This document shows positions 2,615 to 29,820 of a stretch of DNA of 42,738 bases, piece by piece. Under the pieces are notes generated by a model. The model did no database searches, was not told where the DNA came from, and saw only the letters and a list, made by a program, of their open reading frames with translations. A program made the translations under genes and the position numbers. The first letter of the stretch is position 1; the number at the start of each line of letters is the position of its first letter. The stretch is from positions 1 through 42,738 of IMG/VR virus record IMGVR_UViG_3300017917_002836. The stretch is one strand, 5' to 3'. This stretch comes from a virus.

Positions 2615-2626
2615 GGGGGGTGGCCT

Positions 2627-4108: not shown

Positions 4109-4110
4109 CC

Positions 4111-5286: not shown

Positions 5287-5287
5287 G

Positions 5288-6784: not shown

Positions 6785-6798
6785 CAACCAACCGAACG

Positions 6799-6819: not shown

Positions 6820-6872
6820 AGGCGGGGTCCGCGTCTCCCGGCGCGGGCCCTGCGCCTACCCGGGAGACGAGA

Positions 6873-11528: not shown

Positions 11529-11926
11529 TGGACATCGCCGCCATCCGCACCGGCCTAGCCGCCAATGCGGCCACCATCTCCGGGCTGACCTGCACCGCGT
11601 ACGCACCAGACGCGGTCGCAGTACCGGCGTTCTTCTCGGTCGAGATAGCGATTGCATTCGATGAGGCGAACGACCGGTCAACCGACGCGGTCGCGGTGAC
11701 CTGCCGGCTCCTCGTGTCCCGCGCTGACGATCGTGGTGGTCAGCAGGCGCTCGACGCGTATCTGTCTGGCACCACTGGCGGCCTGAAGACGGCGATCGAG
11801 TCGGATCCGACCCTCGGTGGAGTCTGCGACTGGGCAGTCCTGGTCGCGATCGACGGCTACGGCCAGTACTCCGTCGGCGAGGCCGTCTACTACGGCGTCA
11901 CTGTCCACGTGGAGGTGCAGGGCTGA
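11528..11926 (+). CDS. Head-tail joining / tail terminator-type protein
   Basis: A 132-residue protein whose ATG overlaps the TAA of the connector gene. It lies between adaptor and tail-tube genes, where tail terminator or minor tail U-like proteins are encoded. It has a helical start (IAAIRTGLAANAATI), a central beta region (VEIAIAFDE, VAVTCRLLVSRAD) and a terminal YYGVTVHVEVQG, a pattern common to these proteins. Assignment is by position, size and secondary-structure pattern. Confidence 0.6.
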   Translation: MDIAAIRTGLAANAATISGLTCTAYAPDAVAVPAFFSVEIAIAFDEANDRSTDAVAVTCRLLVSRADDRGGQQALDAYLSGTTGGLKTAIESDPTLGGVCDWAVLVAIDGYGQYSVGEAVYYGVTVHVEVQG

Positions 11927-12642
11927 TGGCCACCGCTCACAGCAAGGACTCGCGGATCCTCGTCAACGACCGGCACGTCTCCGGCGACCTGCGAGGCTGG
12001 TCGACGGCGAAGACGTGCCCACTCGCCGACGAGACCAACCTCCTGTCGGCTGGCGGCACAACCAAGCCTGGCATCGTCGCCGGATCGATCTCCCTCAAGG
12101 GCTATCTGGACAGTGCCACTACGTCGCTGGCAGCCGAGGCCGTCGCGGCGGCCGGAGCCGAGAACGCGTTGCTGGTCACGGCATGCCCGGACGGCACGGC
12201 GGTCGGCGCAACCGCGCTGATGGCCGTGTGTGACCAGACGGGGTTCCTGGCGGATGCCTCACATGACGCCGTGGTGCCGCTGGCAATCGAGGCCCTGCCG
12301 GACTCCGGAGTCGACTGGGGCGTGGTGCTGCACGGTCTGACGGCCGAGACCGCCGACGCGAACGCGGCCAGTGTGAACCACGGGGCGGCTACCGCGAATG
12401 GCGGCGTCGCGGCGCTGCACCTGTCCGCGTTTTCCGGGCTGACGAACGTCGTCGTCAAGGTGCAGCACTCCGCCAACAACTCGACATGGGCTGACCTCGT
12501 CACGTTCGCGACCGCCACTGGGCTTACTTCGGAGCGGGTGGTGGTCGCCACCGGTACCGCGGTCGACCAGTACCTGCGCGCGACCGTCGACGTCACCGGT
12601 ACCGGCACCTGCACCCCCGCGGTCGCGTTCGCCCGTCGCTGA
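11926..12642 (+). CDS. Tail tube-like protein 1 with C-terminal Ig-like domain
   Basis: A 238-residue protein. The N-terminal part (MATAHSKDSRILVND, SISLKGYLDS) resembles a tail-tube fold and shares its opening and a matching SxSLxGxxD block with the next gene. The C-terminal ~80 residues (VVVKVQHSANNSTWADL, QYLRATVDVTGTGT) look like the beta-sandwich add-on found on many siphovirus major tail proteins. It may be the main tube protein or a tube-associated decoration. Confidence 0.65.
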   Translation: MATAHSKDSRILVNDRHVSGDLRGWSTAKTCPLADETNLLSAGGTTKPGIVAGSISLKGYLDSATTSLAAEAVAAAGAENALLVTACPDGTAVGATALMAVCDQTGFLADASHDAVVPLAIEALPDSGVDWGVVLHGLTAETADANAASVNHGAATANGGVAALHLSAFSGLTNVVVKVQHSANNSTWADLVTFATATGLTSERVVVATGTAVDQYLRATVDVTGTGTCTPAVAFARR

Positions 12643-12656
12643 CCTCATCTCTGCGT

Positions 12657-12674
12657 ACCCGGCCTCGGCCGGGT
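12657..12674. terminator. Hairpin between the two tail-tube genes
   Basis: ACCCGGCC (12657-12664) and GGCCGGGT (12667-12674) form a perfect 8-bp stem with a 2-nt loop in a 61-bp gap. It could partly terminate or stabilise transcripts so the two tube-like proteins are made in different amounts. The GAAAGGAAGG ribosome site for the next gene follows. Confidence 0.45.
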
Positions 12675-12703
12675 GATCGGCATGATCAGAAAGGAAGGTC
12701 ATC

Positions 12704-13126
12704 GTGGCCACTGCGCACGGCAAAAGTTTCGTGTTCAAGCTCGACGATGCAGCAACGACGTTGCGGCAGCTCACCGGCGTCTCGAAGGTGACCGGCCTGC
12801 CTGGCGGGTACCCCACGGACGACGTCACGGCGTCCGGCGACGCGGGCGGGAAGACCGTGGTCGGCCTGCCGGACAACTCGTTCAGCCTGGAGGGTCCGTA
12901 CGACAACACCGCGGACACCGGCTCGCACACCGTGATCTCGGGGCTGCCCGGCCTGTCCACGACGCAGAGCTTCGAGTACTCGCCGCTGGGGACGGCGACC
13001 AGCTACCCGAAGTACACCGGCGAGTGCCGCTGTACGTCCTATGTGGTCGATGCCGACGTGAAGTCTGCCCTGCGCTACAAGGCAGACTTCCACGTCGAGG
13101 GTGCCGTCACGCTCGGCACGAACTGA
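12704..13126 (+). CDS. Tail tube-like protein 2
   Basis: A 140-residue protein with a GTG start and a strong ribosome site (AAGGAAGG). Begins MATAHGKSFVFKLDD and has NSFSLEGPYDN aligned with the same region of the preceding protein, suggesting that the pair arose by duplication. Its compact size, beta-rich sequence and clean ribosome site fit a highly expressed major tail (tube) protein. Which of the two builds the tube cannot be decided from sequence. Confidence 0.65.
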   Translation: MATAHGKSFVFKLDDAATTLRQLTGVSKVTGLPGGYPTDDVTASGDAGGKTVVGLPDNSFSLEGPYDNTADTGSHTVISGLPGLSTTQSFEYSPLGTATSYPKYTGECRCTSYVVDADVKSALRYKADFHVEGAVTLGTN

Positions 13127-13127
13127 C

Positions 13128-13589
13128 GTGCTCACCTACCGGGTCGGCGGGGCCGAGCGGCTCCGCAAGGCGGCGGCGGACCTGCGTGCCACCCCGGACC
13201 GGATCGAGGTTGCGGTCATCAGGGAGCTGCAGGGCATCCCGGCCGGGCTGCGGCCGCGGGTGCAGGTCGAGATGGCGCGGGTACTGCCGGCCCGGTACGC
13301 CCCGGTGATTGCGGCGGCGCTGCGGGTCGTGGCCACGGTTGGCCGTGGCGGCTGGATCCGGGCTCGCGTGCGCGGCTCGGCCCGCGGCCGCCGCAAGCTC
13401 CGCGACATCGGTGCCCTGGACGCGCGCGGGGCGCTGCGCCATCCGGTGTACGGGCAGGGGGCGGTCTGGTCCACCACGCAGGTGCAGCCCGGCCTGTGGT
13501 CGCGGCCAGTCGACGCCTACACGCCGACGATCATCAATGAGGTTGGTGCCGCCGTTGATCGGGTCGCCGACCAGCTGGAGAGAGGCTGA
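13128..13589 (+). CDS. HK97 gp10-like tail completion/connector protein
   Basis: A 153-residue basic protein, GTG start two bases after the preceding stop. It begins YRVGGAERLRKAAADLRA and has a long helix rich in Arg, then RPVDAYTPTIINEVGAAVDRV, resembling gp10/minor capsid-type joining proteins. Its place after rather than before the tube genes is unusual. An upstream GTG at 13101 would overlap the tube gene and lacks a spaced ribosome site. Confidence 0.5.
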   Translation: MLTYRVGGAERLRKAAADLRATPDRIEVAVIRELQGIPAGLRPRVQVEMARVLPARYAPVIAAALRVVATVGRGGWIRARVRGSARGRRKLRDIGALDARGALRHPVYGQGAVWSTTQVQPGLWSRPVDAYTPTIINEVGAAVDRVADQLERG

Positions 13590-13591
13590 CC

Positions 13592-13960
13592 ATGCCTGAC
13601 GACCTGACGGTGCGGATCCCGCTCGGGGGCGCCAACGCTGAGCTGCTCGGCCTCGACGTCGACGAGCTCGTGCTCGACCTGGGCGAGGTCGAGATCGGCG
13701 ACTCGGTCGAGATCCAGCGTCGGCTTGGACTCACGCCCCGCGGCCTGATCCTGGGGCTGACGCTGCCGCCGGCCGGGTGGGACGCGGTCGTCACCCTGTC
13801 GGCGGTGTGGCTGGCGTTGCGGCAGGCTGGCCGCCCAACCCCCTGGGGCGAAATCAAGATCAAGACGTATCTGCCGCACCTCACGCCCAGCGCTGATGGC
13901 GAGAGCGAGGGCGACGAGGGAAAAGCCTCGCCGACCACGCAGGAGCCGTCGAGCGCCTGA
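13592..13960 (+). CDS. Tail assembly chaperone, unshifted form (gpG-like)
   Basis: A 122-residue protein immediately before the tape measure gene, the fixed position of tail assembly chaperones. It begins with beta-rich DDLTVRIPLGGANAELLGLD and continues with a helical WDAVVTLSAVWLALRQAG. A slippery heptamer at 13918-13924 lies near its 3' end, so it is the short product of a frameshifting pair. It should coat the tape measure during tail assembly and not be in the mature virion. Confidence 0.8.
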   Translation: MPDDLTVRIPLGGANAELLGLDVDELVLDLGEVEIGDSVEIQRRLGLTPRGLILGLTLPPAGWDAVVTLSAVWLALRQAGRPTPWGEIKIKTYLPHLTPSADGESEGDEGKASPTTQEPSSA

Positions 13961-14112
13961 CCTTCAGCCTCGCCGAGGTGCACCAGTACGAGGTGCTCGC
14001 CTCCTACTGGCTGCACCTGCACCCGCACCACGTGCGCCGGCTGACCTGGTCACAGTGGGCCGGGTACCGCGAGCAGCTCGACGCCATCCACGACGCGCAG
14101 GGGGGTGAGTAG
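13592..14112 (+). CDS. Tail assembly chaperone, -1 frameshifted form (gpGT-like)
   Basis: After GGA-AAA the ribosome can slip one base back on GGGAAAA (13918-13924) and continue in the -1 frame from base 13924 to a TAG at 14110-14112. No stop interrupts this frame. The extension reads SLADHAGAVERLTFS...EVLASYWLHLHPHHVRRLTWSQWAGYRE...DAQGGE, about 62 residues, giving a product of about 173. The conserved-looking Trp/His-rich extension and its exact fit before the tape measure start support a real fusion rather than chance. Confidence 0.82.
13918..13924 (+). promoter_or_regulatory. -1 ribosomal slippery heptamer GGGAAAA
   Basis: The sequence G-GGA-AAA in the chaperone frame is a canonical X-XXY-YYZ heptamer, one base different from the lambda G/GT site GGGAAAG. 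Slippage joins the short chaperone to its downstream extension. It lies in an acidic Gly/Glu/Ser linker, as is usual for this gene pair. Confidence 0.85.
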
Positions 14113-14113
14113 C

Positions 14114-16141
14114 GTGGCGCGCACAGTCGGGTTCGACATCGACGTCGGCGATCGCGGAGCGACCACCACCCCGGTCAAGGCCGCGACCGCCCTCGAACGG
14201 CTCGCCGCCCGCCTCGACGAGGCCGGCCGGGCTGCGGCGAAGACGACGGCCGCGTCCGCCGTCGCCGGCGACGCGCTCGACGAGCTTGGCGACGAGGCCC
14301 GCGACGCGGCGGGGGACGTCGACGAGCTCGGCGACCAGATGGGCCAGGCTGCAGGCGGTGCCGGCCGGCTCGCGGCGGCGATCGACACGACCCGAGCCCG
14401 GCACGCCGACCTGATCCGCCAGCTCGACCGCACCGGCGACGTCAGCCTCATCCCGGAGATCCGCGGCGAGGCGTCCATGCTGCGGACCCTCAGCCGGATG
14501 CGCGGCGAGCTGAGCGAGACCCGCTCGGGGCTGCGCGGGCTCGCCGATGACCTGGCCTCCGGCACGCGCGGCCTCGGGTCGGCGCTCAGTGGTGGTGTGT
14601 CTGGGGTCGCTTCGCTCGGCCCGGGGCTCGGCGTCGCCGCAGCCGCCGCGGCGCCACTGATCGGCGCCGCTGTCACCGAGGGCATCATGCTCGGCGTCGG
14701 CGCCGCCGGGATCGCCGCCGGGATCGCCGGCGCGTTCCGGGCGCCAGAGGTCAAGGCGGCGTGGTCCAGTTTTGCCGAGACCGGCGGCGTGGTGCTGGAG
14801 CAGGCCGGCCAGAGGTTCCGCGCTCCGCTCATCGAGGCGCTCGACGACGCCGACAAGCGCCTGCGCGGCCTCGACCTCGCTGGCGCGATCGTCCCTCTGG
14901 CGGACGCGGTCGGTCCGCTTGAGCAGGGTCTGATGGGCCTGGCTGAGCGGGCCATGCCGGGCATCCGGACCGCCGCCGAGGCCGCGGTGAAACCGGTCGA
15001 GGCGCTCGCGGACGAGCTGCCGGACGTCGGCGAGGCGATCTCCGGCGCGCTGTCGGCGGCGTCGGTCGGCGCGGATGGTGCAGCCAGGGCAATGCAGGAC
15101 CTGCTAACCGCCGCCGAGGGTGCAGTCGTGTCGGTCGGCGCGATCGCCGGCGGGCTCGGCAAGGTCTACGAGCTGGCGGACGCCGCCGGCATGACCGGGC
15201 TGCTCGGCATGGCAGGCGACGCCGAGGGCCTGCACGGGACTCTGGTCCGGCTCAATGACGAGGTCCATCGCACGGACCCTGCAGCTCAGGAGGCTGTCGC
15301 CGGGCTGCAGGCCATGGAGGACGCGTTTGCCGACCTCGCCCAGCGCGCCGAGTCGACCCGGGCGACGATCAGTGGCTCCAACCAGACGCTGTTCGACTCG
15401 AACCTGGCACTCGCCGAGGGCTACGACCGGCTGAAGGGCTCCGTCGCCAGCCACGGTACGACCTTGGATATCAACACCGAGGCCGGACGCTCGAACATCC
15501 AGATCCTTGAGCAGATGATCGATGCGGCCGGGCGGTCCGCCGACGCGGAGTACGCGAAGGCCATCGCGACGGGCAACGCGTCCGGCGCCGAGGCCGCGGC
15601 GAACGCGACCAGGGCGGCGGCGATCGCGCAGATCCGTGACCATGCTGCCGCGGTCGGCATGGACGCCGGTCAGGTCAATGCGCTGATCGCGCAGTTGGCG
15701 GCGCTGCCGAGGGGGACGTTGGATTTCGCCTACCGGGTCAACGTCAGCGTGTACGGCGATGTTAATGCGGCGCGGGCCGTGATGGCGGCGGCCGGCGGCA
15801 ACACCGCCGGCATGACGGCCAGCCAGATCAACAACGCGCAGCGGATCATCAACAAGGGGCGCTCCGCCGGCGGGCCGGTGCGCGCCGGCGAGACGTACCT
15901 GGTCGGCGAGGACCGCCCGGAGCTGTTCGTGCCGAAGACCGACGGCGTGATCCTGCCCCGGGTGCCGACCCGGTCCGACCCGACCCCGTGGGGGACGCCG
16001 GCGTCGTCCAGCTCAGCGCCCGTGGTGCTGCGCATCGACTCCGGCGGGTCCCGCCTTGACGACCTGGTGGTGGACATCGTTCGGGCCGCCGTGGACGCCG
16101 CCGGCGGCGACGTCCAGTACGCGCTCGGGCGGTCAGGATGA
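14114..16141 (+). CDS. Tape measure protein
   Basis: A 675-residue, Ala/Gly-rich, largely helical protein, the largest of the tail genes. It has a charged coiled-coil start (RLDEAGRAAAKTTAASAV), hydrophobic membrane-like segments around 170-215 (GVAAAAAAPLIGAAVTEG, AAGIAAGIAG) and a C-terminal SAGGPVRAGETYLVGEDRPE motif commonly seen in actinophage tape measures. GTG at 14114 is chosen because GGGGGGTGAG lies just upstream; GTG at 14105 would overlap the frameshift product. The modest length implies a short tail, near 100 nm at the usual ~1.5 angstrom per residue. Confidence 0.9.
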   Translation: MARTVGFDIDVGDRGATTTPVKAATALERLAARLDEAGRAAAKTTAASAVAGDALDELGDEARDAAGDVDELGDQMGQAAGGAGRLAAAIDTTRARHADLIRQLDRTGDVSLIPEIRGEASMLRTLSRMRGELSETRSGLRGLADDLASGTRGLGSALSGGVSGVASLGPGLGVAAAAAAPLIGAAVTEGIMLGVGAAGIAAGIAGAFRAPEVKAAWSSFAETGGVVLEQAGQRFRAPLIEALDDADKRLRGLDLAGAIVPLADAVGPLEQGLMGLAERAMPGIRTAAEAAVKPVEALADELPDVGEAISGALSAASVGADGAARAMQDLLTAAEGAVVSVGAIAGGLGKVYELADAAGMTGLLGMAGDAEGLHGTLVRLNDEVHRTDPAAQEAVAGLQAMEDAFADLAQRAESTRATISGSNQTLFDSNLALAEGYDRLKGSVASHGTTLDINTEAGRSNIQILEQMIDAAGRSADAEYAKAIATGNASGAEAAANATRAAAIAQIRDHAAAVGMDAGQVNALIAQLAALPRGTLDFAYRVNVSVYGDVNAARAVMAAAGGNTAGMTASQINNAQRIINKGRSAGGPVRAGETYLVGEDRPELFVPKTDGVILPRVPTRSDPTPWGTPASSSSAPVVLRIDSGGSRLDDLVVDIVRAAVDAAGGDVQYALGRSG

Positions 16142-17466
16142 CCGGCACGGTGTGGCTCGACGGCATCACCATGTCGTTCGAGGCTGCACTCGCCACCGCC
16201 GGCGGCCCGTACGCGCAGTGGGGCGTCGAGGCGTACGGGTGGGGCCTCGGGCAGTGGGGCCCCGGCGCGAGCTACGTCGACCTCTCCAGCCGGTTGCGGC
16301 GCTGGTCGACGAGCCGCGTGTTCCGCGACGACTCCACCTGGGGCGGCGGTACCGGCCAGGTGTCCCTGACCAACCAGGACGGGTACCTGTCCGGGGACAA
16401 CCCGGGCAGCCCGTACGTCGTCGGTGGCCTGTCGAGCATGCTGCCGTGGCGGCCGGCCCGGGTCCGCATCGGCTACGCCGGCGTGACCTACGACGTCGCC
16501 ACCATGCTGACCGGCACGTGGCAGGACGCCTCGCCGTCACCGGCGCCCGCCAGTGGCGGCGCCGCCCTGGTCGGCCTGCCACTCAGGGACGAGTGGGCGC
16601 GGCTGGCCCTCGCCCCGGCACCAGGCGCAGCATCCGCGGGCGCCGGTGACCACTTCGGGCCGCGACTGCACCGGATCCTCGACGCGGCCGGGCATCGCGG
16701 GGGCCGCGACTGCGACGTCGGCAACACGACCATGCAGGCCACGACGCTCACGACACAGGTCCTGCAGGAGGTGGCGCTCACCGCGGCATCCGAGGGTGCC
16801 CTCGCCCGGGTGTGGGTGGACGCATCCGGCACGATCGTCGCCCGCGACGGGCGCTGCCTCATCGAGGACACACGGTCGGGCACCGTGCAGGCCACCTTTA
16901 CCGACCAGGTCGTACTGGGCGACGTCACACAGGTCCCGTACATCACGTACCGCAAGACACCGCCCGGCACGAGCCTGCACACCGGCGCGATCTATCAGCG
17001 GGTGGGCGGCGGCACGGCTCAGGCGTACCGGGACACGTCCGCGTCGGCCCTGGTCGGTGGCGGCGGGCTCTGGACGAAACGCAGCGACCTGGTCTGTGAG
17101 ACCGACGCGCAGGCCCTGACGTCCGCGAAGATGCGGGTCGCGCTGGACTCCGTCGCATCGGACGCGGTCACCGAGGTGACCGTCGCGCCGCGCGCCCTGT
17201 CGTGCACCCGGCTGCCGACGATCCTGTCGCTGCGCGAGCTCGACCTGGTCCAGCACATCCGGCATGCGCCAGGCGGCTACACCGTCACCCGGCCATGCCA
17301 CATCGCTGGGATCTCGCACGACTGGGACGTACGCGGCAGGTGGCGGGTCACATTCAAGCTGACGGATGCGACGGTGCCGTACTCGTACTCCGGATCGCTC
17401 TGGGGTTTTGGCACCTGGGGGACGTCGTCATCGGATCCGACGGCATGCAAATGGGTACCGGGCTGA
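16138..17466 (+). CDS. Minor tail protein (tail tip/hub)
   Basis: A 442-residue protein overlapping the tape measure stop by ATGA. It has a Trp/Gly-rich beta N-terminus (YGWGLGQWGPGASYVDLSSR, TGQVSLTNQDGYLSG), and a C-terminal section with LSLRELDLVQHIRHAPGGY and a final beta strand pattern, resembling distal tail or hub proteins. Only this and the next gene cover the tail tip, so one polypeptide may combine roles split between two proteins in other siphoviruses. Confidence 0.7.
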   Translation: MTGTVWLDGITMSFEAALATAGGPYAQWGVEAYGWGLGQWGPGASYVDLSSRLRRWSTSRVFRDDSTWGGGTGQVSLTNQDGYLSGDNPGSPYVVGGLSSMLPWRPARVRIGYAGVTYDVATMLTGTWQDASPSPAPASGGAALVGLPLRDEWARLALAPAPGAASAGAGDHFGPRLHRILDAAGHRGGRDCDVGNTTMQATTLTTQVLQEVALTAASEGALARVWVDASGTIVARDGRCLIEDTRSGTVQATFTDQVVLGDVTQVPYITYRKTPPGTSLHTGAIYQRVGGGTAQAYRDTSASALVGGGGLWTKRSDLVCETDAQALTSAKMRVALDSVASDAVTEVTVAPRALSCTRLPTILSLRELDLVQHIRHAPGGYTVTRPCHIAGISHDWDVRGRWRVTFKLTDATVPYSYSGSLWGFGTWGTSSSDPTACKWVPG

Positions 17467-20727: not shown

Positions 20728-21528
20728 TCACCATCCGGTGGCCGCCGCCCGAGGTCGAGACAGCCGCCACGCGTCTACGGTGGCAACACGCCAGCGCCTG
20801 TCCTCGTCTGCCACTGGACCTTCGCCGCGGCTGACGTGGGAGCGCCAGCCAGACGCCGAGAGGCGGGCCCGCTCGGCGGCCTGCTGCGCGTCCAGGAGTG
20901 CGCCGCCCCACTCGATGTCCTGCTCGCTGAGCGTGGCAGCGATGGCGTCGCGTCGGTCGAGGTACATGCGGGCGATCTCGGGCGGGTCGTAGTCGGCGAA
21001 CGTAACCCGGTAGATGTCCCGAGCCTTGATCAGCCGGGTGTCGGGGTTTGGCTGGTCAAGGAGGCGCAGAGCCGAATCGCGGGCGATGCGGAGTGCCGCG
21101 TCCGCCACGGTCTCCCCTGTGTCCCATGTGATCGTTCCGGCAGCGATGCCGAGTCCGAGCGTGGCGGCGATCATGGGAGCTGCCGCCCATGCCGCCTGAT
21201 GGAGTGCCTCGGCGCGCTCGTGTTGCCCGGCCACGCCGGCGAGCTGGAGCGCGAGCTGCTCGGCGCCACCGCGGGCGGCTATGGCGTAGTAGCCGACCTG
21301 GCCGACCAGGTGTCGGCTGTCTTCGGAGGTACCGACGTACCGCCAGGAGCCGGGGGCGGAGACCTGGTAGACGCCTTCGTCGGAGTCGCCGTTGAGGTGC
21401 TGGTGCCGGCGGATTGCGGTGGCGGTGTTGGTCCAGCGCTCGATGGCGCGCTTGCGGTCGAGGGCGACGCGGCGGGTGTGACGGACGAAGGGGTGGATGG
21501 GGCCGGTGATCGTCATGTCGCTTGTCAT
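20728..21528 (-). CDS. Hypothetical protein, accessory block
   Basis: A 266-residue protein, family not recognised. It has a basic N-terminus (HPFVRHTRRVALDRKRAIERW), a short hydrophobic AAPMIAATLGLGIAAG segment near residue 120, and a helical Asp/Arg-rich C-terminal half. ATG at 21528 is chosen because a TATGCT -10-like hexamer lies 7-12 bases upstream with no ribosome site, which fits a leaderless message; GTG at 21534 is the in-frame alternative. It is bounded by two nearly identical terminators, so it forms its own transcription unit. Confidence 0.6.
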   Translation of the reverse strand: MTSDMTITGPIHPFVRHTRRVALDRKRAIERWTNTATAIRRHQHLNGDSDEGVYQVSAPGSWRYVGTSEDSRHLVGQVGYYAIAARGGAEQLALQLAGVAGQHERAEALHQAAWAAAPMIAATLGLGIAAGTITWDTGETVADAALRIARDSALRLLDQPNPDTRLIKARDIYRVTFADYDPPEIARMYLDRRDAIAATLSEQDIEWGGALLDAQQAAERARLSASGWRSHVSRGEGPVADEDRRWRVATVDAWRLSRPRAAATGW

Positions 21529-21532
21529 ACTC

Positions 21533-21576
21533 ACAGCATACAGCAGAAACGCTGTAATACATCAGACTTGCTGTAG
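21533..21576 (-). promoter_or_regulatory. Promoter/operator region with ACAGC repeats
   Basis: TACAGC (21539-21544) and GCTGTA (21551-21556) form a dyad with a 6-bp spacer, flanked by an additional ACAGCA at 21533 and GCTGTA at 21570. A leftward -10-like TATGCT (21540-21535) lies inside. The AT-rich stretch stands out from its surroundings. This looks like a regulated, leaderless promoter for the leftward gene. Confidence 0.5.
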
Positions 21577-21593
21577 TGTCACCCGAACGAGTA

Positions 21594-21627
21594 CGCCCCC
21601 CGTCCCGGTGATCCCGGGGCGGGGGCG
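21594..21627. terminator. Near-duplicate of terminator hairpin 2
   Basis: CG, a bulged C, CCCCCGTCCCGG (to 21608) pairs with CCGGGGCGGGGGCG (21614-21627). It differs from 20673-20707 by one extra C and the flanks, and the adjoining bases (CTTCGTCGT against CCTCGTCGT) also match. It ends the leftward ribbon-helix-helix gene. Confidence 0.72.
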
Positions 21628-21645
21628 CTTCGTCGTGTGCGGGGG

Positions 21646-22560
21646 TCAGGGCCGCAGGGTGTCCGACGGCCACCGCTCGGATGACCACCGCGCTACCCAC
21701 TGCGCGGCCTGCATCGCTGCGTCTACCAGCTCCTGGTCGAGATCCGAGTATGGCCCCAACGGGACCACGACGTCCGCGAGCCGGTACCGAGGTGACGCAC
21801 TCCAGCGCGGGAGTGTCTCCGTGTTCGCCAGTACCCAGCTGGCCAGCTGGGCGGCGTAGTCCTCTATCTGACCACGGCCCGGTCGGGAGCCATGGTCCTC
21901 GGAGACCATTTTCGTGAGGACGTCGGCGATGACATCCTCACGGCGCACAGCGCCGTGAGAGGCGAGGAGCTGTGCGTAGGCGAGGATCTCCGTGCGCTGC
22001 TCCGGGCCCAGTCCTTCCGGCTCCTGTGTGAGTCCGGCCGTCACGTACCTGCGGATCAGCTCAGTCCGGTCGATGCCAGCCAGCTCGGCGCGGCGTGTCA
22101 GCTCGTCGAGCTGCTCTTCGGGGATGCGGACCTGGATCTTCGGCCCGATCGAGGGACGGCCGGTGCTGTGGCGTACCTCGGCGGGAGCGCTGGTGCGGCT
22201 GGCTGCCAGGGTCCGGATCGCACTGACGGCGTCCTGGCCGATCACCTTGGCGTTTGTGCAGCCACGGTCCGTGTGGGCCTGGAAGGCCGCCTGCAGCAGG
22301 CCGCTCGCGGCGACGCGCTCGCATACGTCCCCAGCCTCGCCCTTGGTGATAGGGCCCAGCGGGATGACGATCTGCGTGTCGCCGGCCGGCACCTCGACCG
22401 GTGGGACCAAAGCGGTGGCGCGCACGTCGTAGATGTCGACGTGCGCGCCCGACTCGCGGGTAGCGTGCTGGCTGACGCTGACGCGGGCGCGGAGGACGAG
22501 GTAGTACTCGTGGCCGTCTGGGCGGTTGGTGACGCTGATGTCGGTGCGGCTGCCAGTCAT
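21646..22560 (-). CDS. Ribbon-helix-helix DNA-binding protein with large flanking domains
   Basis: A 304-residue protein. A central segment at about 155-195 (IGPKIQVRIPEEQLDELTRRAEL...RTELIRRYVTAGL) has the strand-helix-helix pattern of CopG/Arc repressors. The N-terminal ~110 residues (YYLVLRARVSVS, IVIPLGPITKGEAGD) are beta-rich and unrecognised; the C-terminus is helical. ATG at 22560 has GGAGGA 5 bp upstream; longer starts are rejected because they read through the operator. The 13-bp inverted repeats in its promoter suggest autoregulation. It probably controls the transfer-like genes nearby. Confidence 0.75.
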   Translation of the reverse strand: MTGSRTDISVTNRPDGHEYYLVLRARVSVSQHATRESGAHVDIYDVRATALVPPVEVPAGDTQIVIPLGPITKGEAGDVCERVAASGLLQAAFQAHTDRGCTNAKVIGQDAVSAIRTLAASRTSAPAEVRHSTGRPSIGPKIQVRIPEEQLDELTRRAELAGIDRTELIRRYVTAGLTQEPEGLGPEQRTEILAYAQLLASHGAVRREDVIADVLTKMVSEDHGSRPGRGQIEDYAAQLASWVLANTETLPRWSASPRYRLADVVVPLGPYSDLDQELVDAAMQAAQWVARWSSERWPSDTLRP

Positions 22561-22580
22561 CGTGTCCTCCGTCGTTCGTT

Positions 22581-22624
22581 GTTTCGTACGTCCAAAATCT
22601 AGCACAGTTTCGGACGTACGAAAC
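22581..22624 (-). promoter_or_regulatory. Operator-promoter with 13-bp inverted repeats
   Basis: GTTTCGTACGTCC (22581-22593) and GGACGTACGAAAC (22612-22624) are perfect inverted copies, 31 bp centre to centre, or about three helical turns. A leftward extended -10-like TGCTAGATT lies between the arms. A dimeric regulator bound to both arms would cover the promoter. The adjacent ribbon-helix-helix gene is the likely source of the regulator. Confidence 0.7.
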
Positions 22625-22677
22625 TCCGTCACCCGATCACGACCAGCGCGAGCCACCGCGGTCTCCTATCTCCTGTC

Positions 22678-22695
22678 GTACCGTGCCGGTACTCT
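22678..22695 (+). promoter_or_regulatory. Putative leaderless promoter with dyad
   Basis: GTACC (22678-22682) and GGTAC (22688-22692) form a small dyad that overlaps TACTCT (22690-22695), a -10-like hexamer 7 bp before the ATG at 22702. No convincing -35 box. It would drive the small rightward gene in the opposite direction to the ribbon-helix-helix gene. Confidence 0.4.
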
Positions 22696-22701
22696 GTGTG
22701 T

Positions 22702-22899
22702 ATGCCAACGCAGCAGGAGGTCGACGCCGCGGTCGCTCGCTATGTCGACCGGTGCGCGGATTTTGCGATGCTCGCAGCAGCTGCGGGTGTCGACCCGGCT
22801 GAGATTCGTCGTCGGGTCGACCTCGGGATCGCCGAGGGGCAGCGCTCATATGAGCTGCGCAGCTCATATGAGCGTGACTTCGGCACCCAAGCTGCCTGA
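22702..22899 (+). CDS. Small helical protein, convergent with the translocase gene
   Basis: A 65-residue protein (MPTQQEVDAAVARYVDR, DFAMLAAAAGVDPAEIRRRVD) with a helix-turn-helix-like central pattern. The last third is encoded by a 32-bp perfect palindrome and reads SYELRSSYER. It lies between two leftward genes and is the only rightward gene in this block. Function unknown; a small regulator is plausible. GTG at 22696 is an alternative start. Confidence 0.5.
   Translation: MPTQQEVDAAVARYVDRCADFAMLAAAAGVDPAEIRRRVDLGIAEGQRSYELRSSYERDFGTQAA
22843..22874. repeat. 32-bp perfect palindrome made of two 12-bp palindromes
   Basis: The left arm is CGCTCATATGAGCTGC and the right arm is its exact complement. 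It contains GCTCATATGAGC twice, each itself a perfect palindrome, 18 bp apart. It lies at the 3' end of the small rightward gene and 26 bp past the stop of the FtsK-like gene. It could be a bidirectional terminator, but the internal double palindrome is more like two protein-binding sites. Confidence 0.75.
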
Positions 22900-24900
22900 T
22901 TACGGCCGATGGACGTACGTACTACCATCGCCGCGGTCCAGGGCACCCACCTCGACCAGCTGGCGCAGCAGGTCCTGCCGGGTCTGACGGGCGACGTCAA
23001 CACCACGCTCCGCCAGCTGCCGGCCGATCTGACCTGACGTCAGACCGGCCGGGTACGCGTCGCGGACGATCCCGATGATCCGCTCTCTCGTGGTCTCCTG
23101 TCGGGTCTGCGTCGCCACGACGCCCGCCACCTGCTGCGGGTCCACGGTTGACGGGCGGTCGGCGACGATGCCGGTACCGAGGAGCAGCGCCTCACGGGCG
23201 CTGCCGGCCGGGGCCACGGTCGGCTGGTCAACCGCCGGCGGTGCAGCAACCGGCGCCGGCGCCGGCTCCTCGCCGCGCATCTCGGCCAGCTTCGGCGCGT
23301 ACCGGTCCCACCGTCCGGCGTACGCCCGGCCGGCGGCGACATCCCGCATCGTCGGATGCCGTGCGATGTCGATGTGGTCGCGCGGGTCGCGGCCACCGAG
23401 GACCGCGGACACGGTGAGCTGCGCCGCGACCTGCTGGGCACGTGCGTCGAGCCGCGGACGGTACCGCGCTGTGGCAACCGCGTGCCGTTCGAGGATCTCC
23501 GGCGGCACGTCCGCGGACCGGGCGAGCCGCGGGCGCTGACCGATATTCGTGATGATCCATCCGGATCCTCGGTGCCGCAGCCGGGTCGACGGCGGGGTGA
23601 CCCCGAGAATGTGCGCGTACTCGTCCTGCTCGGTCATCGTCAGACAGACCCTGATCGCTGCGACGATCCGCAGCCCTTTGTCGAGCAGGTCTGCGGTGCC
23701 GCGCAGCACGCTGATGATGGCCCGGCCGCCGACCTCGCGCCCGATCTGTGCGTACGAGGACAGTCCGTCGCGGATGGCCGCGCCGAGCAGGGCTGTCGCC
23801 TTGCCGATCTCGCCGCCCTCGTCGCCGATCACGACGATCGCGGGCAGCTCCTCGTCGAGCGGCAGCGTGTTGGTGCGATGCTCCCGCCGCCGGCGGATGG
23901 CCTCGGCAGAGGTCTTGCGGTCCCGTGCGACCGCCAGCGCTGTCGCGATCATGACGGCGCCCTCGTACTCGTCGCCCGCCACCCAGTCCACGACCGGCTG
24001 GGTGGCGTCGCCGCGGGCCCACGGCTCGACGAGCGGGACGGCCAGGCCGCCACCGTTGAGGTCGATGACCCAGACGAGGGCGTCCCGGCACCGGGCGAGG
24101 TGCATGATGACCCGCCGGAGCAGCGTGGTCTTGCCCATGTCCGGGGCGCCGCCGAGCACCATCGACAGCAGGCGCAGGCAGATCGTGACCGGGTTGCCGC
24201 GGGCGTCGTGCATCACCGCGAACTCGTCGTAGATTGATGCCGGGCCGGTTGGCTCCTCGACGGTCCGGGTCTCTGCGAGGCAGTCGCGGAGCATCACGTC
24301 GAGGACCGCCGCCCCCTGGTGCGGGCCCTCCTCGGCGCTCACGGTGCATCCGGGCGGCAGCTTCAGCGCTCCGGCGATGGCGTCACAGCGCAGGCTGAGC
24401 GCGTGCAGTGTCATCCCGTTGAGGTCGAGGTGGTACCTGACGCCGTCCCTCTTGCGGCCCGGCCAGGGCTCGATGTCCGTGAGCTCGATCTTGCCGCCCG
24501 CGGCCGGCTGGAGTAGCGACTCAACCTCCTGGATCCTCCGTGGCCGGGCCAGGTCGACACCGTCCGCGCGGGGCAGCAGCATCGACGCGACCGCGGCGAC
24601 AAGGGCGGAGACCGCCAGGTCGGCGACGGCCTCCCGGGTCCATCCGTGGGTGACGACCCACGATGCCCACAGTCCACATCCGGCCAGCCACGCGGCGAGA
24701 CCTGTGGCACGCCACCGGTGGGCACGGTTGCGGACGGCAACGAGCGTCAGGACACCGGCGACTGCCAGCCCGGCCGCGGCAGGCCACCACCAGGGCAGGG
24801 CTGCGATATCGGCGGCGAGCCCTACCGCGACCGCGGCGAGCATCGTCGCACCGACCACATACGGCGCGTTCCATCCGGGCTCGTGCTGATGCTGATGCAT
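22900..24900 (-). CDS. Membrane-anchored FtsK/TraB-like DNA translocase
   Basis: A 666-residue protein. Four membrane segments occupy about 14-34, 38-56, 67-84 and 92-110. The ATPase core has Walker A GAPDMGKTT (251-259) and Walker B-like IVVIGDEGGE (355-364). A Pro/Ala linker around 525-545 leads to a C-terminal winged-helix domain (RERIIGIVRDA...LTSGQIGRQLAERG) similar to the DNA-reading gamma domain. This is the layout of the septal translocases that move double-stranded DNA between mycelial cells in Streptomyces plasmids and AICEs. GAGGTGA precedes the ATG. It could instead help phage DNA segregation. Confidence 0.88.
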   Translation of the reverse strand: MHQHQHEPGWNAPYVVGATMLAAVAVGLAADIAALPWWWPAAAGLAVAGVLTLVAVRNRAHRWRATGLAAWLAGCGLWASWVVTHGWTREAVADLAVSALVAAVASMLLPRADGVDLARPRRIQEVESLLQPAAGGKIELTDIEPWPGRKRDGVRYHLDLNGMTLHALSLRCDAIAGALKLPPGCTVSAEEGPHQGAAVLDVMLRDCLAETRTVEEPTGPASIYDEFAVMHDARGNPVTICLRLLSMVLGGAPDMGKTTLLRRVIMHLARCRDALVWVIDLNGGGLAVPLVEPWARGDATQPVVDWVAGDEYEGAVMIATALAVARDRKTSAEAIRRRREHRTNTLPLDEELPAIVVIGDEGGEIGKATALLGAAIRDGLSSYAQIGREVGGRAIISVLRGTADLLDKGLRIVAAIRVCLTMTEQDEYAHILGVTPPSTRLRHRGSGWIITNIGQRPRLARSADVPPEILERHAVATARYRPRLDARAQQVAAQLTVSAVLGGRDPRDHIDIARHPTMRDVAAGRAYAGRWDRYAPKLAEMRGEEPAPAPVAAPPAVDQPTVAPAGSAREALLLGTGIVADRPSTVDPQQVAGVVATQTRQETTRERIIGIVRDAYPAGLTSGQIGRQLAERGVDVARQTRQDLLRQLVEVGALDRGDGSTYVHRP

Positions 24901-24925
24901 CTCGGGTCACCTCGCGGGTTGTTGG

Positions 24926-24957
24926 CCGGCCCCGGAGTGTCGACACTCCGGGGCCGG
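24926..24957. repeat. 32-bp perfect palindrome between SpdB-like and FtsK-like genes
   Basis: The left arm CCGGCCCCGGAGTGTC is followed by its exact complement with no loop; the centre is GTCGAC. It lies 25 bp before the translocase start and 13 bp after the upstream stop. It may be a terminator or attenuator that sets translocase levels, or a cruciform-type binding site. Confidence 0.75.
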
Positions 24958-24970
24958 TGGGGGGACTGGC

Positions 24971-26275
24971 TCAGGTGTCCGCCTGGCCGGCGGCGACGTC
25001 GGCACGCTTCTCTGCGTCAACGCCGCCCCGGCGACCGGTGAGCCGGGCCTCGTCGTCGGCGTGTGCTGCCCGGTACTTGCCGGGTAGGGCCTCAGCCTCG
25101 GCTGCGAGCCGTGCGAGCTTCGCCGAGTATGGGTTGGACAGGAGAGTGCCCAGCTTGGACTTGATCGACTCGATCTCGGCGACAAGGGCCTTGTCCGCGG
25201 GCAGCTCGGAGTCTGCCTGCGTGGCGAGCTGCTGCAACCCTCTGACCGTCGCGGCGAGCTGCTCTTCGTGCCTGCGGACCTCGGCTGCGTGCTCGCTGAG
25301 CGCCTCGGAGACTTTCGGTAGGTTCCGCCCAAATCGGAACAGTGACGCACCTTCGGTATACATGCTGTCTCCCTTCGGCCGCCCTGCCGGCGGCGGTTGT
25401 ATGAACGCGGCCTGCTGGTCGCGCGTGCTGGTCGCTGATGCCGGTTTGTCGCCGTCGCGGCCCGGTTTCGGTTTCCCATCGGCGGACCGGGCGCGCTTTC
25501 CGTCGGCAGCCTGGGCGCGCCTCTCGGCGCGGCGCCGCTGCCGCTCGGCATCGTCATCCATCGCAGCGTCGAGGCCCGCCCGACCTTGGTCCCACAGGGT
25601 CTTCCACCACGGCTGGCCGGCCTTCCCGCTCTTGCTCTTGGCGTTCTTGCCGCGACCGCCGCCGAACGGCCACCAGGAGCCGCCGGTACCCCAACCGCCT
25701 TTCAGCCCTTTTCCGCCGCCACCGGTGCCCCGGCCGCCGAGCAGCTTGCCGAGCGGTCCGCCTTTCCCGGTCCTGCCGCCGCCACCGCCGGCGCCAGCGG
25801 TCCTACCGGCACCCTTGCCCCGGCCGCCGAGCAGCTTGCCGAGTGCGCCCCGCCCGGGACTCCCTGACCCTCCACCTACGCCCTTGCCGCGACCGCCGCC
25901 GAGCAGGCGCGACAGCGGACCACCCTTGCCACCACCGGCCGGGCCGGTCCGGCTGGTCTTGCTGGACGTGCGGCTCGCGGTGCCGCCACGCCCGGGGAAG
26001 AGCGCGCCGAGGATCCGATCGAGCAGGCCGCCCTTACCTTTGCGGCGCCACGCGAGGATGCCGCACCACGCCACGATCCCGAGTGCGGCGTTGGCGACGA
26101 GCCACCACAGCCACCCGAGCAGGGCATACGCGGCAAGCTCGACAACGACCACCAGGAGCACGGTGCAGACGACGACCGGGGGGCGTTGCAGCCATGCCGG
26201 GGTACGTGGCCGGCGGCGCCGCGGCGCTGGCGGCTGGGTGCCGCCGGGCTGCTGCTGGGTGGTTGGCTGCGCCAT
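24971..26275 (-). CDS. SpdB-like Gly/Lys-rich membrane protein
   Basis: A 434-residue protein. It begins with a Pro/Arg-rich cytoplasmic tail, then two membrane segments (about 34-54 and 56-75). A long Gly/Lys/Arg region from ~80 to ~215 contains at least three copies of a unit like KGGPLGKLLGGRG. The C-terminal ~120 residues form a coiled coil (SEALSEHAAEVRRHEEQLAATVRGL). This is the style of the spread proteins that accompany TraB in actinomycete plasmids and help intramycelial DNA spread. GGAGGGAGC precedes the ATG. Confidence 0.72.
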   Translation of the reverse strand: MAQPTTQQQPGGTQPPAPRRRRPRTPAWLQRPPVVVCTVLLVVVVELAAYALLGWLWWLVANAALGIVAWCGILAWRRKGKGGLLDRILGALFPGRGGTASRTSSKTSRTGPAGGGKGGPLSRLLGGGRGKGVGGGSGSPGRGALGKLLGGRGKGAGRTAGAGGGGGRTGKGGPLGKLLGGRGTGGGGKGLKGGWGTGGSWWPFGGGRGKNAKSKSGKAGQPWWKTLWDQGRAGLDAAMDDDAERQRRRAERRAQAADGKRARSADGKPKPGRDGDKPASATSTRDQQAAFIQPPPAGRPKGDSMYTEGASLFRFGRNLPKVSEALSEHAAEVRRHEEQLAATVRGLQQLATQADSELPADKALVAEIESIKSKLGTLLSNPYSAKLARLAAEAEALPGKYRAAHADDEARLTGRRGGVDAEKRADVAAGQADT

Positions 26276-26304
26276 GATGCTCCCTCCGTCGTGACGCTGC
26301 GTAA

Positions 26305-26420
26305 TGTCAGGTGTCAGGTGTCAGCCCCCTGACTGTCAGGGGGCTGACACCTGCGTTGACCACGGCGAGACTCCGGGGGCGGTTATGGCGTCAGGGGGTG
26401 TCACCCCCTGACACCTGACA
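26305..26420. repeat. TGTCAGG tandem and inverted repeat cluster with 18-bp hairpin
   Basis: TGTCAGG occurs in tandem at 26305 and 26312 (third, TGTCAGC, at 26319); two inverse copies CCTGACA lie at 26407 and 26414. Between them CAGGTGTCAGCCCCCTGA (26315-26332) pairs perfectly with 26336-26353 over a 3-nt loop, and TCAGGGGGTG (26391-26400) pairs with CACCCCCTGA (26402-26411). The cluster overlaps the 3' end of a small leftward gene. It may be a terminator, but repeat number and symmetry resemble a cis-acting locus beside spd and tra genes. Confidence 0.75.
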
Positions 26421-26671
26421 CCGCTTCCGCTACTCGCAGTGACCGCGGCGGGGGGTGCTGCCCACGGGCTGACGCGTTCGGCGAGCAGCTCACCGAGGCG
26501 CTCACCGAACGCGAGCGCCTGCTCGTCGGGCAGGCCGAGGATGCGCGCCGCGCCGCATGTGCGAGTAATGGCGGCGGCAGCCTGAGCGGTCTCCTCGAGA
26601 TCCGTGAAGGTCACGGGCGTCACGCTTGCCAGCTCGACGTCGTCGCGCTGGGCGATGGCGGTAAGGGACAC
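26336..26671 (-). CDS. Small hypothetical protein in the transfer-like operon
   Basis: A 111-residue protein, GTG start with GAGGAG about 7 bp upstream. N-terminal region SLTAIAQRDDVELASVTPVTFTDL is followed by a helical LEETAQAAAAITRTCGAARI...ALAFGERLGELLAER; the C-terminal ~35 residues are low-complexity and coincide with the repeat cluster. Family not recognised. It lies between the DUF2637 and SpdB-like genes and was probably extended into the repeats. Confidence 0.6.
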   Translation of the reverse strand: MSLTAIAQRDDVELASVTPVTFTDLEETAQAAAAITRTCGAARILGLPDEQALAFGERLGELLAERVSPWAAPPAAVTASSGSGVRCQGVTPPDAITAPGVSPWSTQVSAP

Positions 26672-26737
26672 TGGGGGCTCCTCTTGTAGGTGGCGGGGGC
26701 GGCGGTCTTGTCGGGCGCGACGCCCCCGCATATCGAG

Positions 26738-27637
26738 TCAGTTGCTGGCGGCTACCGCTGTGCCGTTGATGCGGTCGTGCGTAGTGGCGGTCATCTGTCG
26801 AGCACGGCGGGCGGCGGGCAGGTACCGCTCGACGGTCCGCACCGAGCGGCCCGCCATCTCGGCGATCTGCTCGGCTGTCGCGTCGGGATGACGTCGATGA
26901 AGGTCTGCCACGATGTCGGCGGTCGACCGACGGTCCGCTAGGTCGCCATGCGTACCGGCGTGGCGGCCGCCAACCGGGTGATGCGCGCCGGCGCCTGACA
27001 GTGTCGGGACGGCCGCTAGCGCGACGGTAGGGCGCCACTGGGCTGTCGGAGCAACGGCGTGACTGGCGTCCTCTGCGGCGTCCGCCTCGTCGTCGCCGGA
27101 GGCCGTTTCGTCCCGTCGGTCCGCCACTTCCGCCACCGACACGGGCGGTGCCTGCGCTGCTAGAGCCATTTCCGGGCTGGCGGCGCCAACCGTGGCGGTC
27201 ACGCGGTCCGCCACGGCGACCGCCAGGACGACGAGCAGGTGCACCGACAGGGCGAGCATGACGGGCGGGATGGCAGATACCGCCATGGCAGCCCGCTCGC
27301 CGAGTGGGTGACCGCCACGTGCGTGCAGCGCGTTGCAGGCGATGGAGATCGCGGCGCCCGACAGGACGACGAGCCACGGGTACGCGGGGCGGCGGCCGAG
27401 CCGACGCAGGACGACGGCCGCCACGGTGGCGACCGACATTGCACCGTCGACCGACAGCGGCATGAGCCATGCCCATGACGGTCGGACGTGCGCGGCGACC
27501 GCCACGGCCCGGATCGCGTCGAAGCTGAGCGTGAATCCGGCGACCGCCACGGCGACGGTTCCGAGGCTCGCGACGGTCCCCGCGACGATCCCCAGGGTGG
27601 TCGTCGCGACCTGGTGCCAGTCGATGCGCGTGGCCAT
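26738..27637 (-). CDS. DUF2637 membrane protein with C-terminal HTH
   Basis: A 299-residue protein. About four membrane segments lie between 10 and 147 (TLGIVAGTVASLGTVAVAVAGF, WLMPLSVDGAMSVATVAAVVL, YPWLVVLSGAAISIA, VMLALSVHLLVVLAVAVA), with the LSFDAIR and PLSVDGAM features of DUF2637, a family common in Streptomyces plasmids and AICEs. The C-terminus (STADIVADLHRRHPDATAEQIAEMAGRSVRTVERYL) is a helix-turn-helix. ATG at 27637 has GAAGGGA upstream; the longer frame is rejected. It may couple membrane location to DNA binding in transfer or plasmid maintenance. Confidence 0.82.
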   Translation of the reverse strand: MATRIDWHQVATTTLGIVAGTVASLGTVAVAVAGFTLSFDAIRAVAVAAHVRPSWAWLMPLSVDGAMSVATVAAVVLRRLGRRPAYPWLVVLSGAAISIACNALHARGGHPLGERAAMAVSAIPPVMLALSVHLLVVLAVAVADRVTATVGAASPEMALAAQAPPVSVAEVADRRDETASGDDEADAAEDASHAVAPTAQWRPTVALAAVPTLSGAGAHHPVGGRHAGTHGDLADRRSTADIVADLHRRHPDATAEQIAEMAGRSVRTVERYLPAARRARQMTATTHDRINGTAVAASN

Positions 27638-27653
27638 ACCGATCCCTTCACTG

Positions 27654-27678
27654 TGTGGGTAATGTGGGCTATGTGGGT
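27654..27678. repeat. Three 9-bp-spaced TGTGGG repeats in divergent promoter region
   Basis: TGTGGGT (27654), TGTGGGC (27663) and TGTGGGT (27672) recur with an exact 9-bp period, 17-41 bp upstream of the DUF2637 start. They lie between that leftward gene and the rightward HTH gene. A regulator of one or both genes, possibly the HTH protein itself, may bind here. Confidence 0.6.
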
Positions 27679-27774
27679 TACACGATAGCGCGTCGAGCCT
27701 CGATCCAGCGAGTAGCCACGATGGTCTGCAACCATGGATCAATCCGTGGGGTACGTGGGCTGGGAGGACTATCG

Positions 27775-27984
27775 GTGGTCGGCAGTGGCAAGTGGCTCAC
27801 CACCGGCGAGGCAGCTGAGCGTCTCGGCACCAGCGACGAGACGATCCGTCGCTGGTGCGTTAGCGGCGAAGTGTTCGAGCACCGCGAGGTCATGAAGACC
27901 GCCGGGCGAGGTGGGCGCGGAGGGCACTGGCGCGTGCTCGCCGAGGCCGTCGAGCGGATCGTCGCCGAGCAGCTCGGGGAGTAG
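27775..27984 (+). CDS. Excisionase-like/MerR-type HTH protein
   Basis: A 69-residue protein, GTG start with GGGAGG at optimal spacing. KWLTTGEAAERLGTSDETIRRWCVSGEVFEHREV is a typical DNA-binding domain of excisionases and short MerR-like regulators; the tail (GHWRVLAEAVERIVAEQL) completes the winged helix. It lies about 1 kb from the integrase gene, divergent from the DUF2637 gene. It could be the phage Xis or the regulator of the transfer-like operon; sequence does not separate these. Confidence 0.72.
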   Translation: MVGSGKWLTTGEAAERLGTSDETIRRWCVSGEVFEHREVMKTAGRGGRGGHWRVLAEAVERIVAEQLGE

Positions 27985-28983: not shown

Positions 28984-29820
28984 TCATGGCAGCTCCACGT
29001 GGGCGACGTCCGGCAGAGCCGCCACCCATGTGGCGAGCTCGACGAGCGTGACCTCGGTGTAGACCTGGGTGGAGGTCAGGGACGCGTGACCGAGGGCCTC
29101 CTGGACATGTCGCGTGGAGGCGCCCGCCGCGAGCATCCGGGTGGCAAAACGGTGGCGGAGGCGGTGCAGGCCGCCGGTGACGCCGAGCCGGCTGATCCGG
29201 TACCGGGCGGTGCGCGAGATCCAGTCGGCGTCATCTCGGCCACCGGTGGAGCGCATGACGCTGCCGGCCGGCAGGTCCGCCACCTCTCGCCAGACCGTCG
29301 GATGCATCGGCACGAGCCTGGTTTTCCCGCCCTTTCCGTGCACGAGCAGCGCCTGGTCGGTGATGTCGGCGCCGCAGAGTCGGGCGATCTCGCAGCACCG
29401 CAGTCCTGCCCACGCGGCGAGCACCGCGGCGAGCAGGCACCACCCGGTCGTGCCGCCAATGATCGTGTGCAGCTCGTGCTCGCCGACCGGATGCGGTATG
29501 CCCCGGGGCACGGATGGGGCATCGAACCCGGTCATCGGGTTCCAGTCGAGGTACCCGCCGTCGACTGCCCAGCGGAAGAACCCTGTGATCCGGGCGTGGT
29601 AGGCGCCCCTGGTGGCCTGCGACCACCAGGGTTGGCCGTTGCTGCCACGGCGGCCGAACAGCGTCACGAGCTCCGCCTGGCTGGCGCACTCCAGGCCGAG
29701 GCTCAGCTCCGGTGAGCGGTCCGCGGCGCGGAGGCTGCTCTCGATGCTGCGTAGGGAGCCGCGCCCGAGGGCGCGCAGGTATGCCACGTAGGTGCCGATG
29801 AGATCGTCGTCGTTACCCAT
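28984..29820 (-). CDS. int: Tyrosine recombinase (phage integrase)
   Basis: A 278-residue XerC/D-size integrase. Residues 1-95 form the core-binding SAM-like domain; the catalytic set is complete: Arg141 (AGLRCCEIARL), Lys163/166 (GKGGKTR), His219 and Arg222 (HRLRHRFATRM), His245 (LGHASL) and Tyr254 (TQVYTEV). No N-terminal arm-binding domain. It starts 6 nt after the stop of the repressor gene, with no ribosome site and a hairpin just upstream, so translation is probably coupled. It integrates the phage genome and, with a Xis, excises it. Confidence 0.95.
   Translation of the reverse strand: MGNDDDLIGTYVAYLRALGRGSLRSIESSLRAADRSPELSLGLECASQAELVTLFGRRGSNGQPWWSQATRGAYHARITGFFRWAVDGGYLDWNPMTGFDAPSVPRGIPHPVGEHELHTIIGGTTGWCLLAAVLAAWAGLRCCEIARLCGADITDQALLVHGKGGKTRLVPMHPTVWREVADLPAGSVMRSTGGRDDADWISRTARYRISRLGVTGGLHRLRHRFATRMLAAGASTRHVQEALGHASLTSTQVYTEVTLVELATWVAALPDVAHVELP

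Follow-up and report, generated by a model that had tools for sequence, protein, structure and literature searches.

Can the genome of a tailed phage encode, besides its virion genes, a plasmid-type machinery that moves double-stranded DNA (dsDNA) between cells? The question is raised by IMGVR_UViG_3300017917_002836, a whole IMG/VR virus record of 42,738 bases, which was analysed over its full length (the window). It looks like a complete 42.7-kb siphophage genome, and the host is probably a filamentous actinomycete. A rightward head-tail-lysis cluster is followed by a leftward block of genes (20728-27742), after which come a tyrosine integrase and, again rightward, the early region. Read leftward, the block encodes a DUF2637 protein, a small protein, an SpdB-like protein, an FtsK/TraB-type translocase, a ribbon-helix-helix (RHH) protein and a possible helix-turn-helix (HTH) protein (Table 1); all its open reading frames (ORFs) are intact and have a third-position GC content (GC3) of the coding type. 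An earlier note on this DNA had described a conjugation-type module between the lysis genes and int, and the block was indeed found there, with the lysis genes on its left and the integrase on its right. The block is almost certainly homologous to the transfer modules of plasmids and of actinomycete integrative and conjugative elements (AICEs), and we consider it probable that it is a plasmid-type dsDNA transfer or spread module of an integrase-bearing tailed phage.

The translocase and its partner genes

The translocase matched the FtsK/SpoIIIE family of PHROGs and no Pfam family. An AlphaFold model based on 39 related sequences (mean predicted local distance difference test score, pLDDT, 85.9) comprised four N-terminal helices (residues 12-108), a RecA-type motor and a C-terminal winged helix (residues 604-663) with helices 604-615, 622-631 and 638-650 and a strand at a pLDDT of ~90. 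Four N-terminal transmembrane (TM) segments were predicted, the Walker and catalytic motifs are intact, and among PDB folds the best matches were motor domains of FtsK (E 8e-18) and TcpA, a conjugation protein of pCW3. In a tree of 53 proteins, the translocases of plasmids, AICEs and phages formed one group from which chromosomal FtsK, EccC and pIJ101 Tra were split off by 100/100 branches. Within the group, phage translocases interleaved with plasmid and AICE proteins at several separate places; nearest to the protein of the window were those of loci L008, L009 and the Micromonospora locus L027. A second tree also kept chromosomal FtsK apart and placed protein 71c of the plasmid prophage pZL12 inside the group, on a long and uncertain branch. 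Tree and fold together rule out that the protein is a packaging ATPase or a derivative of chromosomal FtsK, and the membrane-bound FtsK/TraB-like translocase of the earlier note withstood the phylogenetic comparison with TraB and chromosomal FtsK which that note had proposed.

The partner genes recognised earlier, an SpdB-like Gly/Lys membrane protein and a DUF2637 membrane/HTH protein, were likewise recovered. The C-terminal domain of the SpdB-like protein (...YRxxHxxD...) is conserved and common to plasmid and phage proteins encoded at the same operon position, and a profile made from alignment A2 detected the counterparts in pZL12 and in the related virus contig G003. Of the dedicated regulators that had been postulated, the RHH protein stands, and the HTH protein is a possible one with weak matches. 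No family match was obtained in Pfam or PHROG for the small protein, the 3' end of whose gene overlaps the repeat array described below, and an NCBIfam search returned nothing for the core proteins of the block. SpdB of pIJ101, considered as a homologue of the DUF2637 protein, was dismissed, the two having no Pfam family in common. In cluster A mycobacteriophages, a DUF2637-related membrane protein (e.g. LHTSCC gp35) is named 'excisionase' by RefSeq and PHROG; for a protein with multiple TM segments this name looks doubtful.

Table 1 Features of the phage genome
Feature	Position	Strand	Evidence
Virion genes: terminase (phrog_9), portal, major head protein, major tail protein, tape measure, minor tail	752..17466	+	PHROG matches
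Protein with weak C-terminal HTH signal, last gene of leftward block	20728..21534	-	HTH_17 E=0.008, phrog_597 E=0.001, both weak
RHH DNA-binding protein, probable regulator	21646..22656	-	PF01402 E=6e-6
Small opposite-strand ORF, 67 aa, abuts 3' end of ftsK	22696..22899	+	similar ORFs in G001 and G002
FtsK/TraB-type dsDNA translocase, Walker A GGAPDMGKT	22900..24900	-	phrog_31069 E=3e-45; AlphaFold model; PDB fold matches; trees
SpdB-like Gly/Lys-rich protein (19% Gly), two N-terminal TM segments	24971..26275	-	33-34% identical to L008 and L027
Candidate cis-acting transfer site (clt/TRS-like)	26305..26422	.	TGACACC/GGTGTCA x6 and two GC-rich hairpins
Small protein; probable start GTG 26671, preceded by AGGAG resembling a ribosome-binding site	26336..26731	-	ORF and codon bias; sequence reading
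DUF2637 membrane protein with C-terminal HTH-like segment, first gene of block; likely start ATG 27634	26738..27742	-	PF10935 E=7e-14; four predicted TM segments
HTH_17/MerR-like protein, probable excisionase or regulator, divergent from block	27655..27984	+	PF12728 E=8e-11; phrog_66 excisionase E=2e-6
Tyrosine integrase	28984..29820	-	PF00589 E=2e-15
Replication-initiator-like ORF with five palindromic iterons	37231..38385	+	role inferred from iterons and gene position

Single-sequence searches of viral and genome contigs found no relatives of the translocase; alignment A1 was required, and a profile search with it located the gene at 19 viral-contig loci and at 29 loci in genomes. Widening the profile search brought no further virus loci. 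Among the virus records bearing the translocase, a large terminase was present in 14/20, DUF2637 in 12/20 and a tyrosine integrase in 3/20. The gene order DUF2637, hypothetical, FtsK was found in linear plasmids of Streptomyces longwoodensis, S. uncialis and strain NBC_01178, and the order multi-TM protein (DUF2637 or other), SpdB-like, FtsK in the AICE-type locus L041 and the phages Keanu, G003 and pZL12. In G003, the terminase, portal and head protein are 38-41% identical to those of the window, FtsK and SpdB-like genes are present as well, and the gene at the DUF2637 position encodes a multi-TM protein that had no Pfam match. The virus contig G002 resembles the window in the minor tail protein (34%), endolysin (44%) and holin (65%), after which SpdB-like and FtsK genes follow leftward.

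Among isolated phages, tblastn found the translocase in six records only, namely Streptomyces phages related to Hiyaavirus and Thermobifida phage P1312; the copy in pZL12 is more distant and was detected by profile, beyond the reach of tblastn. The search for the same block in other actinophages, suggested in the earlier note, thus yielded related modules in pZL12, Hiyaavirus and P1312. Phages of Gordonia, Mycobacterium and Rhodococcus were absent from the tblastn list of isolated phages, although 63 of the 66 phages with the same portal family come from these hosts. Since the translocase has no match there despite the kinship of the portals, a restriction of the module to mycelial hosts fits the data, which do not prove it. 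In the literature searched, outside which most subscription papers lay, no paper identified the module of Hiyaavirus, P1312 or integrase-bearing phages as a transfer system.

Repeat arrays and predicted recognition helices

Just upstream of spdB lies an array of short repeats (26305-26422) which, like the small ORF opposite to ftsK, had been missed in the earlier note. Apart from its six copies in the array, TGACACC occurs once in the whole phage sequence. The strongest exclusive 8-mer cluster of the sequence is CTGACACC, with 5/5 copies within 113 bases (26310-26422), and the repeats form the inverted tandem pairs GGTGTCAGGTGTCAG and CTGACACCTGACACC. Markov-shuffled controls reproduced an inverted tandem pair or a cluster of this kind in 0/300 and 0/200 cases. 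The phage 7-mer is identical to the repeat of the transfer-essential clt locus of pWTY27, where TGACACC occurs four times and TraA leaves a footprint (PMC3583192). Further, TraB of pSVH1 reads 8-bp repeats via helix alpha3 of its winged helix, which the same source gives as experimentally established. In G002, an array GTGTCAGGGTGTCAGG of the GTGTCAGG type is found at the position matching the phage array. By analogy, the phage translocase would bind the array of its own genome, and we judge it likely that the array is the loading site of the translocase.

In the AICE relatives, arrays are located after the ftsK stop codon, and Thermobifida phage P1312 also has a repeat array right after ftsK. 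The arrays after ftsK mostly have a GACCWGC core (22/49 loci, 5.1 expected). Seven loci of the AICE clade, having the predicted recognition helix RRPV[IL]Q, carry GTGACAG arrays with 4-7 copies, and six loci with the helix [TS]R[QP]T[IV] (including phage G003) carry GCGACA or ACGACA arrays with zero GTGACAG; helix class and repeat class therefore agree in 13/13 AICE-clade loci. In a tree of the motor that left out the winged helix, helix class changed independently three times and the repeat class switched along each time. The motors of L045 and L053 are even 91% identical, and the two loci have opposite helix and repeat classes. Because the array follows ftsK in the AICE relatives and helix and repeat switched together three times, these arrays are probably binding sites of the translocase, and the covariation points to a translocase that reads the array. 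Co-variation after the ftsK stop was noted in L030, L032, L036, L038-L041, L044, L045, L048, L049 and L053, and the pairing of winged-helix class and 8-bp repeat class across AICEs is possibly a recognition code. Such a pairing would be usable as a rule to predict transfer origins in actinomycete elements, and the predicted recognition helix together with the array makes the phage module directly testable.

Other repeats were seen near modules of this kind. In phage G002, dense CCCGTACG repeats are located near the module (L009:7161-7503). Hiyaavirus-type phages have GGGGTAACAG arrays ~8-9 kb downstream of ftsK (L003:23690-23960, L020, L021 and L015), which are possibly a clt or an origin. Downstream of the stop codon of the phage's own ftsK no array was found, only the palindrome GCTCATATGAGC, which occurs twice (22844-22873) inside the small ORF directly past ftsK and is a possible regulator site. 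This ORF was compared by eye with L060:6064-6363 and L057:13988-14215.

Proposed mechanism and alternatives

We propose that the translocase would sit in the membrane of hyphal tips or septa, held there by its N-terminal TM helices, that its C-terminal winged helix would load a hexamer on the repeats that precede spdB, and that the motor would drive phage DNA, unprocessed and either circular or replicating, into the adjoining compartment or into a hypha in contact, so that DNA would cross into another cell. The DUF2637 and SpdB-like proteins may form the membrane passage or make it more stable, and control of the operon may lie with the RHH and HTH proteins. Intercellular or intramycelial spread of DNA is accordingly the net function that we favour, with some reservation. 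If the module works in this way, the customary division between transduction by virions and conjugation by cell contact breaks down for these phages, since one genome encodes the two, and the recurring FtsK-like 'DNA translocase' or moron genes in phages of filamentous actinomycetes would be explained. A wider proposition is tentative, and we doubt it more than we trust it: tailed phages of mycelial actinomycetes, some of them having no recognised integrase, may possess their own dsDNA conductor and loading site and spread their genomes between hyphal compartments independently of lysis and virions.

The main rival of a transfer or spread function is segregation within one lineage. The translocase might move an extrachromosomal prophage or replicating DNA across closing septa, for example of spores, and thus serve stability, not transfer. 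Its FtsK/SpoIIIE fold would suit this role, spread genes of Streptomyces plasmids influence stability too (PMC4170104), and most of the module-bearing virus records show no tyrosine integrase; the family of the translocase, however, is that of plasmid and AICE transfer proteins and not of chromosomal FtsK, and it is accompanied by SpdB-like and DUF2637 partners and a clt-like array. On balance we regard segregation alone as unlikely, but one machine could serve both purposes. A moron with a role against competitors or in host takeover, such as superinfection exclusion or a block of the host's septal DNA pumps, would not involve DNA transfer at all; PHROGs classes the family as 'moron, auxiliary metabolic gene and host takeover', and the module occurs in phages such as Hiyaavirus in which an integrase was not seen. 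Since this would leave a three-gene plasmid module with a clt-like array unexplained, it appears improbable. That the block is plasmid cargo, decayed or carried as a passenger, and has no function in the phage is very hard to reconcile with intact ORFs of coding-type GC3, conserved catalytic motifs and retention in several phage lineages, although the scattering of translocase relatives among phages would be expected of such cargo.

A further alternative concerns the array only and is compatible with transfer. The array might serve as operator or attenuator for the spdB-ftsK operon and be recognised by the RHH or HTH regulators, and the translocase would then have another target or bind nonspecifically. 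RHH proteins bind tandem repeats, which favours this possibility, as do the inverted organisation with hairpins and the position directly upstream of spdB. On the other hand, the arrays of plasmids, AICEs and G003 follow ftsK, their repeat type tracks the winged helix of the translocase, and the phage 7-mer is the very clt repeat of pWTY27 that is bound by TraA; a regulatory array is therefore a serious possibility but clearly the less probable one. Several observations weigh against a translocase-loading array and a transfer module. In the window, as in G002, the array precedes spdB and does not follow ftsK, a position that would also suit an operator or attenuator, and two perfect GC hairpins lie within the array. 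No comparable array was seen in L008 and L027, the closest relatives of the translocase whose flanks could be read, and in G001, which harbours L008, none was found near spdB or ftsK. The covariation of helix and repeat was seen in relatives outside the phage's own subfamily, and a phylogenetic sign test on the three pairs gave p=0.25, the sample being too small for significance. Finally, a Pfam search did not recognise DUF2637 in pIJ101 SpdB.

Phage genome and known systems

The portal is ~42% identical to portals of Gordonia, Rhodococcus and Mycobacterium phages; a search for near-identical DNA among phages gave no match to the genome. Both contig ends lie between the HNH gene and the terminase, the same end position as in G003 (42,748 bases), which fits cos-ended linear genomes. 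An excised slice of a chromosome is disfavoured because int is internal to the contig. A 40-base direct repeat (20676-20715 and 21597-21636, 98% identical), each copy 3' of one of two successive leftward genes, probably represents duplicated hairpin terminators, and two 21-base repeats (90%) at 30321-30364, between divergent repressor-like and cro-like genes, are probable operators. Glycosyltransferase-like and NAD-epimerase-like ORFs were read by eye inside the head-tail cluster (6873-10674). A GGDEF diguanylate-cyclase protein is encoded at 34138-34869 (Pfam E=4.5e-27); GGDEF genes near the FtsK module also occur in the plasmids or genomes of L006, L030, L037, L049, L050 and L099 and in phage G002, which suggests a recurrent link between the two.

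A plasmid-style iteron origin, part of the earlier interpretation, had to be abandoned: the rep ORF itself contains the five GGTCCGSCGGACC iterons (37767-37991), an arrangement like that of lambda-O-type phage origins, so they are no evidence of a plasmid origin. The rep candidate had no RepAM, other Pfam or PHROG match, and the other phage ORFs that were scanned gave no AICE replicase (RepSA, RepAM or Prim-Pol) either. Of the AICE traits, the integrase and an FtsK-type Tra are present; a replicase was absent from the ORFs scanned, and there are virion genes, which an AICE lacks. The conjugation-type half of the proposed 'phage-AICE hybrid' holds, given the tree and the clt-like array, but the AICE half does not, and the label is too strong since the ORFs scanned yielded no AICE replicase and the iterons are inside a phage rep ORF. 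With regard to an autonomous plasmid prophage as in pZL12, the window has an integrase and iterons within the rep ORF, and ParA/ParB were not noticed in a search that was not exhaustive. The AICE-type relatives have RepAM/DUF3631 (E=2e-65), and L045 an integrase; RepSA, considered for these loci, occurs in the same genomes but was not placed in the same elements.

A tailed phage with a transfer module has a precedent in pZL12 (phage ZL12, NC_013420), so a phage-transfer hybrid is not unprecedented. Like the window, pZL12 combines virion genes with a three-gene module, i.e. the adjacent genes for a membrane protein (73c), an SpdB-like (72c) and an FtsK-family protein (71c); family profiles detected 71c with E=2e-91 and 72c with E=1e-17. 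According to PMC3583192, which like PMC7157519 cites Zhong et al. 2010, pZL12 transfers with a tra gene and two adjacent genes, which we infer to be 71c-73c. Unlike the window, which is 42.7 kb long and has an integrase and a clt-like array, pZL12 is a 90-kb plasmid prophage with ParAB whose translocase is 25% identical; 73c had no DUF2637 match and no array was seen after 71c.

Hiyaavirus (the Streptomyces phages Hiyaa, Keanu and others) and Thermobifida phage P1312 are isolated tailed phages which also have SpdB-like and FtsK-family genes, annotated as 'DNA translocase' or 'hypothetical' only, and Keanu has a DUF2637 gene (weak match). Their translocases are ~30% identical to that of the window and their terminase belongs to another PHROG family. 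The AICEs L041 and L045 share the arrangement of SpdB-like gene, FtsK gene and 8-bp array, together with a GntR regulator in L041 and the integrase in L045, but RepAM/DUF3631 AICEs have a RepAM replicase in place of the phage rep, and no virion genes were recognised in their flanks. With the TraB/clt systems of pSVH1, pWTY27, pJV1 and pIJ101 the window has in common a single, membrane-anchored motor of FtsK fold, a C-terminal winged helix, a nearby array of 7-9 bp repeats (in the phage a candidate cis-acting site) and adjacent spd-like membrane genes, whereas Tra of pIJ101 is outside the clade of the phage translocase and no homology of the phage spd genes to pIJ101 SpdB could be recognised.

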